This document shows positions 4,284 through 12,486 of a stretch of 16,486 bases of DNA, piece by piece. The translations under genes and the position numbers were made by a program. Origin of the DNA: Candidatus Cloacimonadota bacterium (GTDB lineage: Bacteria > Cloacimonadota > Cloacimonadia > JGIOTU-2 > B8-G9). The stretch spans positions 1 to 16,486 of the forward strand of contig QMNM01000004.1 of assembly GCA_003647765.1 (NCBI GenBank), written 5' to 3'. Below the pieces are notes generated by a model. That model saw only the letters and a list, made by a program, of their open reading frames with translations. It made no database searches and was not told the DNA's origin. Positions within the stretch are counted from its first letter, which is position 1. Every line of letters starts with the position of its first letter.

Positions 4284-5147
4284 ATGAAAAAATTTATTGT
4301 ATTCATATTTTTATACTTATTATCATCTAATTTGATAGCAGAGCAGATTCACATACTATATACTAATGATTTGCTTTGTGGAAAAGAAAATACCCAGTAT
4401 AAAAAATTGGCTTATCTAACTGTTCTGACTGATTCGTTAAAGAATGAGTATCAAAATGTTGTAATAGTGGGAAATGGAAATAATTTTTGTGGAGATTCAC
4501 TATTAAGCAGAATAATCTCTCAAACGATGAATAGAATCGGTTATGATGTAGTAATGACAGGTACCAAAGAGTTTAGTAATGGTTTAGACGAATATTTATC
4601 TGCTTTGGATAATATAGATTTTCCAGTGGTTGTTTCTAATCTTAGGTTTGATATAAATCATAAAAATCTGCATAAGATAAGAGAAAATCTGATAATAGAG
4701 AGAGATGGTGTAAAATTAGGATTTTTTGGATTATTATCACCTGATTTTCCGCATTTAACCGTAACTGATAAAAGATACCAGTTTCGTTTTGATTATCAGA
4801 ATGAAGCAAAGGAACAGATAGAGAAATTACAAAAAGATAGTGTTAATATTAAGATTGCGATTACTCAATTTGATAAAAAGTTTAATATTGAACTTGCTGA
4901 GAATGTTGAAGGAATAGATATAATTTTATGCGGAGACCCGATAACACGGAACCAAGGTATAAGAAAAATTATCTCTCCTGACTCTAATATTACTTATATT
5001 GTTTGGATTGATAACAATAAATACTTTGGAGATTTACTGATAGATATTGAACAAAAAAAGATACATAAAGTTGAATGGCAGAAAATTCCTTTATTAGATG
5101 ATATTAGTGATAAAATAGATATTTTAGATTTACTTAAAAACGATTAG
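4284..5147 (+). CDS. Secreted 5'-nucleotidase-like protein, probably catalytically dead
   Basis: 287 aa with an N-terminal signal peptide (MKKFIVFIFLYLLSSNLIA, probable cut before EQ), so likely periplasmic or exported. The remainder follows the order of the metallophosphoesterase domain of UshA-type 5'-nucleotidases: a first strand QIHILYTND, then a GNNF block, GTKEF, PVVVSNL, VKLGFFGLLSP, IKIAITQFD and IDIILCGD. The metal and catalytic residues of this family are mostly substituted: TNDxHG is TNDLLCG, GDN is GNN, GNHEFD is GTKEFS, the LTH histidine is Gln195, and GHxH is GDPI. Only Asp29 remains. The C-terminal nucleotide-binding domain of UshA is absent. I infer a non-catalytic relative; substrate or partner is unknown. 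The ATG at 4284 is chosen over a GTG at 4266 that lies within a repeat and would precede the signal peptide. Confidence 0.72.
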   Translation: MKKFIVFIFLYLLSSNLIAEQIHILYTNDLLCGKENTQYKKLAYLTVLTDSLKNEYQNVVIVGNGNNFCGDSLLSRIISQTMNRIGYDVVMTGTKEFSNGLDEYLSALDNIDFPVVVSNLRFDINHKNLHKIRENLIIERDGVKLGFFGLLSPDFPHLTVTDKRYQFRFDYQNEAKEQIEKLQKDSVNIKIAITQFDKKFNIELAENVEGIDIILCGDPITRNQGIRKIISPDSNITYIVWIDNNKYFGDLLIDIEQKKIHKVEWQKIPLLDDISDKIDILDLLKND

Positions 5148-8403: not shown

Positions 8404-9705
8404 ATGAATAAAATTCGTCGTTCAATATTAGTAAAATTATATTTCCTTGTCGGTAGTTTAATTATAGTTATTTTCTTTATAATCTACAATAATTCTCTAT
8501 TGGTAAAATCTCGGGAAGAGGGCCAAATAATTCCCCGTTTCTTTGCTAAATTTCTAACTATCTCCACTTATGAAAATATTGAAGGTAAATTAGTACAACT
8601 AATTTTTAATGAAGTAATACAAAAAATAGATTATCCAATTATTGTAACTAATAAAAATAATATTCCTCAACAATGGAAAAATTTGCCTGTACCAAATAAG
8701 AAATTTGAGGACTTATCAGATGAAGAGAAGTTATTGTTAATGAAAACAATAAAAATAATGGAGAGGAAGTATTCCCATATTAAACTAACAATTCCTCAAA
8801 GCAATAAAATTATTAGTTATATCTACTACGGTGAATCAAACACAATGAAAAGGTTAAAGTTCTTACCGTATTTTGAATTCCTTGTAATGCTTATATTTAT
8901 TGCGGTTGGTATATTTGGCGTAATTTATGTTCAACAGGGTGAGAAAAGGTCACTCTGGGTGGCATTAGCAAAAGAGACAGCTCATCAGTTTGGTACACCC
9001 CTATCATCTCTTATGGGCTGGATGGATATTCTAAAAATAAAAACAAAAGATTGTCCTAATTCACAAGCAATTAGGGAAATTATAGATAATGCTACAATTG
9101 ATATAGACAATTTAAAAAGGACCGCTTTTCGGTTCGGCAAAATTGGCTCCACTATTAAATTAAAACAATCCAGTATGGAAAAGATGATTCAGGAAACAAT
9201 TGAGTATTTCAAACCACGCTTGCCTCAATTTGGAAGTAAAATCTATCTTAATTATATCAATCACTTAGAGCGAGATGATTACTTGTTTGATCCTGACTTA
9301 ATGAAGTGGGTTCTGGAAAATTTAATAAAGAATGCTATTGATGCTATGCGAAATACTTCTGGAAATATCTCTATTATCACTTTTGATGATACTTCTGATA
9401 AATATGTCCATATTCAAGTAAGAGATGAAGGAAAAGGAATTCCAACTAATATGTATAAGAAGATTTTTGATACAGGTGTAACTACGAAAAATCGTGGTTG
9501 GGGATTAGGATTGAGTTTAGCAAAGAGAATTGTAGAGGAATTTCATAAAGGGAAAATTTATGTTTTGGAAAGTACCAAGAATCAAGGCACAGCCATAGAA
9601 GTGCTATTACCTAAAGAGACAAGAAGACAAGAGTTCAAGAGGACAAGAGTTCAAGATAACAAGAGTTCAAGAGGACAAGAAGAGAATGCTGATGCTGTGA
9701 AATAG
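8404..9705 (+). CDS. Membrane-bound sensor histidine kinase
   Basis: 433-aa two-component sensor. Membrane segments are at about residues 10-30 and 152-176, enclosing an extracytoplasmic region of about 120 residues of unknown ligand. The dimerisation helix has the H-box AKETAHQFGTPLSSLMGW with the phospho-accepting His194. The GHKL ATPase domain shows an N-box NLIKNAIDAM (Asn310), DEGKGIP (Asp341) and GWGLGLSLAKRIVEEF. All kinase motifs are intact. The HQFGTPLSS form of the H-box is one I associate with FCB-group kinases, which is an impression. No response regulator is adjacent, so it is an orphan within this window. The last ~29 residues (405-433, ETRRQEFKRTRVQDNK...) extend past the end of the ATPase fold and are encoded largely by repeat DNA. 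A terminator candidate follows. Confidence 0.9.
   Translation: MNKIRRSILVKLYFLVGSLIIVIFFIIYNNSLLVKSREEGQIIPRFFAKFLTISTYENIEGKLVQLIFNEVIQKIDYPIIVTNKNNIPQQWKNLPVPNKKFEDLSDEEKLLLMKTIKIMERKYSHIKLTIPQSNKIISYIYYGESNTMKRLKFLPYFEFLVMLIFIAVGIFGVIYVQQGEKRSLWVALAKETAHQFGTPLSSLMGWMDILKIKTKDCPNSQAIREIIDNATIDIDNLKRTAFRFGKIGSTIKLKQSSMEKMIQETIEYFKPRLPQFGSKIYLNYINHLERDDYLFDPDLMKWVLENLIKNAIDAMRNTSGNISIITFDDTSDKYVHIQVRDEGKGIPTNMYKKIFDTGVTTKNRGWGLGLSLAKRIVEEFHKGKIYVLESTKNQGTAIEVLLPKETRRQEFKRTRVQDNKSSRGQEENADAVK
9617..9684 (+). repeat. GTTCAAGAGGACAAGA repeat inside the kinase 3' end
   Basis: The word GAGTTCAAG recurs about every 16-18 bp, separated by AGGACAA, ATAACAA and AGACAA. It is translated as the kinase C-terminal tail. 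The same words occur at 10501-10565 inside the NnrE/NnrD gene, and in reverse complement as CTTGAAATCTTGTTATC at about 12017-12056. Confidence 0.85.
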
Positions 9706-9852: not shown

Positions 9853-11484
9853 ATGATAGTTTTATCACCAGCAGAGATGAGAGAATTGGATAGAATATCA
9901 ATTGAAGAAGTAGGCATTTCTGGTTTAGTGTTAATGGAAAATGCTGGGAAAAAATCAGCAGAAATAATAGAAGAAAAAATCCTTAAAACTAACAAAGAAA
10001 GAATTGCAGTCCTTTGTGGCACAGGAAATAATGGCGGGGATGGAATGGTCATTGCTCGTTGGCTATTCAACCATAACTATAATGTAGATTGTTTCATAAT
10101 TGGAAGTGAAGAGAAGTTCACACCATCAGCAAGAAATAATTATGGCATCCTCAAATACCATAATATTTCTATATATTACATTGAAAATGAGCAAGATTTA
10201 GACAAATGGAAAGATGCTTTTGTTAATTATAATGTGTTCATTGATGCGATTTTTGGTGTCGGATTAAAAGGTGCTGTCAAAGGATTTCGTCAACAATTGA
10301 TAGAAACTATAAATCATCTAAATAGAATTTGTATAGGTGTAGATATTGCATCAGGTGTGGATGCTGAAACAGGCAAAATAGGAAGTGTGGCTATAAAATG
10401 CAATTATACTATTACAATGGCTTTCCCAAAGTATGGGCATCTCTTATTCCCAGGCAGAGAGTATACTGGTAAGTTATTTGTTGTTGATATTGGAATACCA
10501 AAAAGAGTTCAAGAGTTCAAGAGTTCAAGAAGACAAGAGTTCAAGAAATCAAGAGTTCAAGAAGTAGAACGACCTTCCAAGCTCGTTAATAATTATGCTG
10601 AATTATTAGAAGATGTTCGCAGTTTAATTCCAGCAAGAAAGATGAATTCTCATAAAGGTAATTATGGCAAAGTAGGAATTATTGCTGGTTCGCCAGGTTT
10701 GACTGGTGCGGCTATTATGTCTGCCAATGCTTGTCTGGAAATGGGCGCTGGACTGATAACTGTTATTCATCCTAAATCTATTGGCACTATTTTGGAAAAT
10801 AATCTTCTGGAAATTATGACTTATGGAGTTGATGAGACAGAAGAATTCAGTATTGCATATACAGCTCTTAATAAAATTATGAATTTTTGCAAAAATTTAG
10901 ATGCTGTTGCTGTGGGTCCAGGTTTATCAAGAAATCCAAATACACAAAAGTTAATCAGAGATTTTTTACTGAATAATCAATTACCAGCAGTAATAGATGC
11001 TGATGCAATCAATGCGTTTGAAAATCATAATGATACTTTGGAGGAACTAACAGGCAAACCATACATATTTACACCACATTTAGTAGAATTCTCAAGATTA
11101 TACAACATTTCACTTGAAGAGATAAAAGATAATCCATTACATACAGCCAAACAATTTGCTAAACAATATAAAGTTGTTCTATTATTAAAAGGAGCAACTT
11201 CCATTATCACTGACGGAAATAGATTAACATTCAATATTACAGGTAATCCTGGATTAAGCACAGGTGGTAGTGGAGATGTATTGACAGGTATTATTTTAGC
11301 ATTGTTAGGACAAGGACTATCTATTTATGATTCTGCTCGTATTGGCGCATTTATTCATGGAAAAGTTGCTGATGTAATTAAAAATGAATTTGGAGAAATT
11401 TCTATCACACCAGCAAAATTGATAAGGAATATTTATCGTGTGATGAAAGCCACGAACCATACATCGTTAAAACTTTCTCCATAG
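9853..11484 (+). CDS. nnrD: Bifunctional NAD(P)HX epimerase / ADP-dependent NAD(P)HX dehydratase
   Basis: Repairs hydrated NAD(P)H: the N-terminal NnrE domain interconverts the R and S epimers, and the C-terminal NnrD domain dehydrates S-NAD(P)HX using ADP. 543 aa, close to the fused YjeF type. NnrE (about 1-216) shows CGTGNNGGDGMVIAR, FIDAIFGVGLKG and VDIASGVDAETG. NnrD (about 242-543) shows GNYGKVGIIAGSPGLTGAA, AVGPGLSRN, VIDADAIN, FTPHLVEFSRL, LLKGATSII and the ribokinase-like GGSGDVLTG with catalytic Asp475. A GAGG lies before the ATG. Residues 217-241, between the two domains, are encoded by a short-word DNA repeat and read KRVQEFKSSRRQEFKK..., a basic, probably flexible linker. Both catalytic domains look complete. 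Confidence 0.94.
   Translation: MIVLSPAEMRELDRISIEEVGISGLVLMENAGKKSAEIIEEKILKTNKERIAVLCGTGNNGGDGMVIARWLFNHNYNVDCFIIGSEEKFTPSARNNYGILKYHNISIYYIENEQDLDKWKDAFVNYNVFIDAIFGVGLKGAVKGFRQQLIETINHLNRICIGVDIASGVDAETGKIGSVAIKCNYTITMAFPKYGHLLFPGREYTGKLFVVDIGIPKRVQEFKSSRRQEFKKSRVQEVERPSKLVNNYAELLEDVRSLIPARKMNSHKGNYGKVGIIAGSPGLTGAAIMSANACLEMGAGLITVIHPKSIGTILENNLLEIMTYGVDETEEFSIAYTALNKIMNFCKNLDAVAVGPGLSRNPNTQKLIRDFLLNNQLPAVIDADAINAFENHNDTLEELTGKPYIFTPHLVEFSRLYNISLEEIKDNPLHTAKQFAKQYKVVLLLKGATSIITDGNRLTFNITGNPGLSTGGSGDVLTGIILALLGQGLSIYDSARIGAFIHGKVADVIKNEFGEISITPAKLIRNIYRVMKATNHTSLKLSP
10501..10565 (+). repeat. GAGTTCAAGA repeat inside the NnrE-NnrD linker
   Basis: AGAGTTCA/AGTTCAAG units run head to tail, then AGACAAGAGTTCAAGAAATC and AAGAGTTCAAGAAG. 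The reading frame is the same as in the repeat at the kinase C terminus, giving RRQEFKKSRVQ here and RRQEFKRTRVQ there. Confidence 0.85.
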
Positions 11485-11850: not shown

Positions 11851-11938
11851 ACAGGATTTACAGGAAAAACAAAAACAAAAAATTTGGATTAGAATTATTA
11901 TGGAAGTAAAAGAAAAAATGTGAAAATAATAAAAGTAG

Positions 11939-12085
11939 ATGTCGTTAAGTTAAATGACCCTTTATTCCTGTTGGGCATACTATATATAGTGTAGCGCGAC
12001 CTGCCAGGTCGCTTTTCTTGATCTCTTGAAATCTTGAAATCTTGTTATCTTGTTATCTGGTCTTAATTTATAATGTCGTAACTAT
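11939..12085 (+). repeat. Paired-arm hairpin element, copy A
   Basis: Left arm 11939-11959 (ATGTCGTTAAGTTAAATGAC plus C) and right arm 12059-12085 (GGTCTTAATTTATAATGTCG plus TAACTAT) are identical to those of copy B. TAAG-TTAA-(AT)-GACC of the left arm pairs with GGTC-TTAA-TTTA of the right, giving a 12-bp stem with a 2-base bulge. The 99-bp interior holds a palindrome ACTATATATAGT, a hairpin GCGACCT-GCC-AGGTCGC (11996-12012) followed by TTTT, and CTTGAAATC repeat text. Confidence 0.75.
11996..12016. terminator. Hairpin with T-run inside arm element A
   Basis: GCGACCT (11996-12002), loop GCC, AGGTCGC (12006-12012), then TTTT. The 7-bp GC-rich stem with a short T-run could terminate transcription on the + strand, but it lies far from any gene end, so a role as part of the repeat element is as likely. 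Confidence 0.4.
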
Positions 12086-12101
12086 GAAAATTTAAAAAAA
12101 C

Positions 12102-12130
12102 TTGACAGCATTTTTCCATAAAAAGAATTT
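12102..12130 (+). promoter_or_regulatory. Candidate promoter box, TTGACA copy 2
   Basis: CTTGACAGCATTTTTCCA starts at 12101 and matches copy 1 at 16 of 18 bases. TTGACA at 12102-12107 suits a -35 hexamer; the following A-rich DNA has no clear TATAAT. It lies about 380 bp before the giant gene, so a long leader would result. Confidence 0.3.
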
Positions 12131-12157
12131 ATCCTTCATAAAAAAATTTATCCTTTC
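12118..12157 (+). repeat. 20-bp tandem duplication
   Basis: ATAAAAAGAATTTATCCTTC (12118-12137) is followed directly by ATAAAAAAATTTATCCTTTC (12138-12157). The two differ only by compensating single-base gaps. Confidence 0.8.
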
Positions 12158-12238
12158 TGAAAAAAGTTTTTTAGATAAAAACATAGTGTGAATAGTCGCT
12201 GAACTTCTTTATTGCTTATGTCTTATAGGAAAAAATAA

Positions 12239-12315
12239 ATGTCGTTAAGTTAAATGACCACCGCTGTATAACTACAGCAATACTACAAGGTCTTAATTTA
12301 TAATGTCGTAACTAT
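12239..12315 (+). repeat. Paired-arm hairpin element, copy B
   Basis: Left arm 12239-12259 and right arm 12289-12315 are identical to copy A. The interior is only 29 bp and unrelated in sequence, but it too forms a hairpin: GCTGTA (12263-12268), loop TAAC, TACAGC (12273-12278). Thus conserved arms enclose different hairpins. Confidence 0.8.
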
Positions 12316-12486
12316 AAAAAAATAAAAAATAATTGCGAGAATGAGAAAAAAATTAAAAAAGATAGCACACAGAAGAACACTGATTTAACAGAAAATCACT
12401 GATTAAAATTATGAAATATTTTTTTATCAGCGTTATTCTCTAAATTTTATGTTATTCTGTGTCAAATCTCATTGGAGGAAATTAAA

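Follow-up and report, generated by a model that had tools for sequence, protein, structure and literature searches.

The Locus and Its Genomic Setting

The window analyzed here, a stretch of 16,486 nucleotides, is contig 4 of a draft genome of a Candidatus Cloacimonadota bacterium, a fragmented assembly of 1.97 Mb in 360 contigs that is 88.8% complete. The two elements described below lie in a spacer of ~1 kb, between a gene for NAD(P)H-hydrate epimerase/dehydratase, recognized by its Pfam domains YjeF_N and Carb_kinase, and a large open reading frame that probably encodes a secreted protein, judging by eye from its signal-peptide-like start. Other large frames of the window read by eye as gyrase/topoisomerase subunit B, an RtcB-like protein and a MazG-like protein, and Pfam searches added a histidine kinase and a malic enzyme. 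Neither reading by eye nor Pfam revealed a recognizable transposase or recombinase in the window, and a tRNA scan found no tRNA. Rfam searches at gathering and permissive thresholds returned nothing credible and no score above the gathering cut-off, and the literature yielded nothing on point.

Identical Arms Around Two Different Interiors

A preliminary description of this DNA reported two elements, copies A and B, with exact left arms of 21 bases and exact right arms of 27 bases, and sequence comparison agrees (Table 1). It also described the interiors, 99 and 29 nt in length, as unrelated but each provided with a hairpin of its own; the best local alignment between them is only 6 nt, and both hairpins were found by folding. 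The likeness of the copies reaches past the arms by 8 nt leftward and 14 nt rightward, into A-rich DNA, and then ends, giving extended alignments of 29 and 41 nt at 93% identity, and the outer flank AACTAT is identical in the two. The background for repeat scans was 274 kb of the source genome (258 kb from other contigs plus the window). Only two other arm pairs in left-right-left-right order were found there, both with arms of 12–14 nt, so that no comparable pair exists in this background and the exact arm repeats are not a product of chance.

TABLE 1. Coordinates of the two copies, their parts and their flanks in the window.
Feature	Position	Strand	Remark
A-rich left flank, copy A	11931-11938	+	6/8 bases common to 12231-12238
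Left arm, copy A, 21 nt	11939-11959	+	Exact repeat of 12239-12259
Interior of copy A, 99 nt	11960-12058	+	Unrelated to copy B interior
G+C-rich hairpin then TTTTCTT, copy A interior	11996-12012	+	Terminator-like; single copy in genome
Array of 8-bp units, TCTTGNNN, copy A interior	12016-12058	+	Repeat dispersed through source genome
Right arm, copy A, 27 nt	12059-12085	+	Exact repeat of 12289-12315
Left arm, copy B, 21 nt	12239-12259	+	Exact direct repeat of 11939-11959
Interior of copy B, 29 nt	12260-12288	+	Unrelated to copy A interior
Hairpin GCTGTA-TAAC-TACAGC, copy B interior	12263-12278	+	Found by folding
Right arm, copy B, 27 nt	12289-12315	+	Exact direct repeat of 12059-12085
A-rich right flank, copy B	12316-12329	+	Partly common to 12086-12099

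The interior of each copy can be regarded as the head of a stem formed by its arms. In head A, the G+C-rich hairpin stands upstream of the array of 8-bp units, which makes up nearly half of this interior. Arrays of this kind are scattered through the spacers of the source genome, singly and often as inverted pairs, and the movement of repeats within this genome thus accounts for nearly half of head A. The first 24 nt of the copy B interior are single-copy in the genome. Promoter-like matches number 14 in this A+T-rich spacer against 7 expected, and none is tied to a copy.

Several further repeats were observed nearby or elsewhere in the material. Between copies A and B (12117-12169) lie about 2–2.5 copies of AAAAAAATTTATCCTTCAG, a 19-bp tandem repeat. 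Arrays of 8-bp units (CAAGANNN) also occur within two neighboring coding genes, at 9614-9680 and 10503-10563; the latter array encodes roughly residues 215-247 of the hydrate epimerase/dehydratase, an extra linker of ~30 residues between the two domains that in most relatives falls in the gap between the matched parts. At locus L053, positions 4560-4834, a palindromic element of REP-type look, GAAACCCGACTCGAGTTCAAAGAACCCGAGTCGAGTTTC, is found nearly identical on either side of a tRNA-like gene.

The heptamer ATGTCGT, which was noted at both outer edges of each copy in direct orientation, was verified at all four positions (11939, 12073, 12239, and 12303), with one further copy in the window at 846. 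As the two copies are duplicates of one another, the sole independent coincidence is that one word is common to the left and right arm, and shuffled arms have some 7-mer in common in 4% of trials. The suggestion that the word represents a recombination core is accordingly a weak one.

Confinement of the Arms to the Locus

Each arm, searched in the 88.8%-complete source genome with up to three mismatches allowed, was found only in the two adjacent copies. Both arms are absent from the 123 other genomes of the phylum used for comparison, from the contigs of 84,980 species in an exact search, and from viral contigs. The phylum set includes no member of the source organism's family or genus, for which reason absence from these relatives says little about the age of the element. 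Copy B had no match by BLAST in 40 genomes, and the whole element matched no phage and, among plasmids, gave nothing but a weak match to the 8-bp simple array. The neighborhoods of the upstream gene in relatives (L063–L079) hold no comparable paired repeats, short tandem ones being present in L073 only. A covariance model built from the two arm pairs, which the long interior keeps from recovering copy A in full, found no match in 18 relatives.

Folding of the Arms and Strand Preference

The arms had been described as pairing in a bulged 12-bp stem. The bulged stem stood, although its length did not: folded as plus-strand RNA, the arms give 18 bp interrupted by one 1x1 mismatch and two 2-nt bulges, which is slightly better than claimed. 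The stem pairs without flaw at its inner tip, GACC/GGTC, and becomes imperfect farther out, and the identity of the arms between copies stops exactly at this tip. The predicted free energy of the arm duplex alone is -10.4 kcal/mol, a value that 5000 arm shuffles equaled 145 times in one run and 157 times in another (~3%), and equally good pairing occurs in 29 of 2409 overlapping segment pairs taken from the same A+T-rich spacer. By these estimates, the significance of the predicted arm pairing is modest, suggestive rather than strong. The arm pairs of copies A and B are identical, and the stem therefore carries no covariation signal.

The predicted pairing depends on the strand. On the minus strand it is mostly lost and 25% of shuffles are its equal, and both strands pair only weakly under DNA parameters (about -3.6 kcal/mol), because three of the 18 pairs are G-U. 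If this preference favors anything, it favors RNA over an inverted repeat in DNA. Folded in full as plus-strand RNA, the copies surpass dinucleotide shuffles with z values of -2.4 and -2.7; the minus-strand values are -1.4 for copy A and -2.3 for copy B, the latter arising from other hairpins. The proposal of a structured RNA, its base conserved and its head variable, is mildly favored by the strand specificity of the predicted fold.

Origin of the Pair and Possible Roles

With nothing similar elsewhere in this genome or in the others searched, the pair most likely reflects local duplication rather than a mobile element. The interpretation that we consider somewhat probable is that local duplication produced two copies of a small stem-loop element, that at least one head was replaced or expanded, and that the element possibly acts as plus-strand RNA. 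A stem-loop of about 75–100 nt would have been duplicated once, in the same orientation, within the ~1-kb spacer. Its base arms would have remained identical in both copies, while at least one head was replaced or expanded, head A in part by an 8-bp array. A function, if the element has one, would most likely be exercised by plus-strand RNA, as two small RNAs or as two domains of one transcript that share a base stem and differ in their heads. Exact arms enclosing wholly unlike interiors are an odd outcome for a simple recent duplication, and this counts against such an event; they can be accounted for if the arms are under selection or if a head was exchanged shortly after the duplication, one or the other being required.

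A paralogous pair of small regulatory RNAs, in which the base stem is under selection and the heads have diverged toward different targets, seems a rather unlikely alternative. The selected stem might serve in protein binding or in protection from RNases. Arms that are identical whereas interiors and flanks differ would fit such a pair, as would the strand-specific predicted fold with its G-U pairs and the presence of a separate hairpin in each head, that of head A being terminator-like. Tandem paralogous small RNAs, or sibling sRNAs, are adjacent and in the same orientation, and share a stem while the remainder is unlike, all of which can be said of copies A and B. The present pair differs from them in being known from sequence alone, with no Rfam family and no homolog in the searched relatives that would show conservation; in addition, a simple repeat found across the genome, rather than an evolved head sequence, occupies nearly half of one head.

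A MITE-type element with interchangeable cargo, with ATGTCGT as its target duplication, had been proposed as well and is very unlikely. Inverted arms bordered by a 7-bp direct repeat, in a genome where short dispersed repeats are common, are what recommended it, and the copies resemble MITEs and REP-type intergenic palindromes in being short, non-coding, intergenic and equipped with paired arms. Unlike those elements, they number two, lie side by side and show no dispersal. The absence of the arms elsewhere in their own genome, a finding named beforehand as telling against this proposal, argues against mobility, and it also means that no transposase in the assembly is flanked by the same arms. 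Nor is there a target-duplication pattern: a duplicated target should differ between insertions, but both copies carry the same ATGTCGT, and the outer AACTAT common to both indicates that they are not two independent insertions. In terminal inverted repeats, agreement is expected at the outer ends; the arms here match best at their inner ends, and the G-U pairs on which the stem depends would be mismatches in DNA. With no transposase recognized in the window, the MITE proposal is largely refuted within the source assembly.

Recombination sites of the integron attC or phage att kind, with ATGTCGT as the crossover core, are scarcely credible. An attC site is a bulged, imperfect stem with a variable head, a form that recurs here together with GTTRRRY-type heptamers in the left arms (GTTAAGT, GTTAAAT), but the RYYYAAC box is absent from 11931-12330, leaving no consensus box pair; there is no cassette gene between the sites; no integrase or other recombinase gene was recognized; shuffled arms share some heptamer at the frequency given above; and sequences close to the would-be empty site, AATGTCGTAACTAT, are no commoner in the genome than those close to its reversed control (19, including the two here, vs. 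73). The related idea of integration-site relics fares no better, as the arms occur only at this locus and the window holds no recognized recombinase.

As it stands, this is a minor observation, a single spacer element found duplicated in a bacterium that has been poorly sampled. It illustrates that identical arms around unlike interiors in two copies need not mean mobility. A more far-reaching conjecture, which we regard as highly improbable, is that the copies belong to a family of small RNAs, restricted to this lineage, in which the base stem is fixed while the heads are renewed by the genome's 8-bp arrays and thereby gain new targets. If sister species had the same arms with other heads, the element would be a modular small RNA, and the finding would matter.
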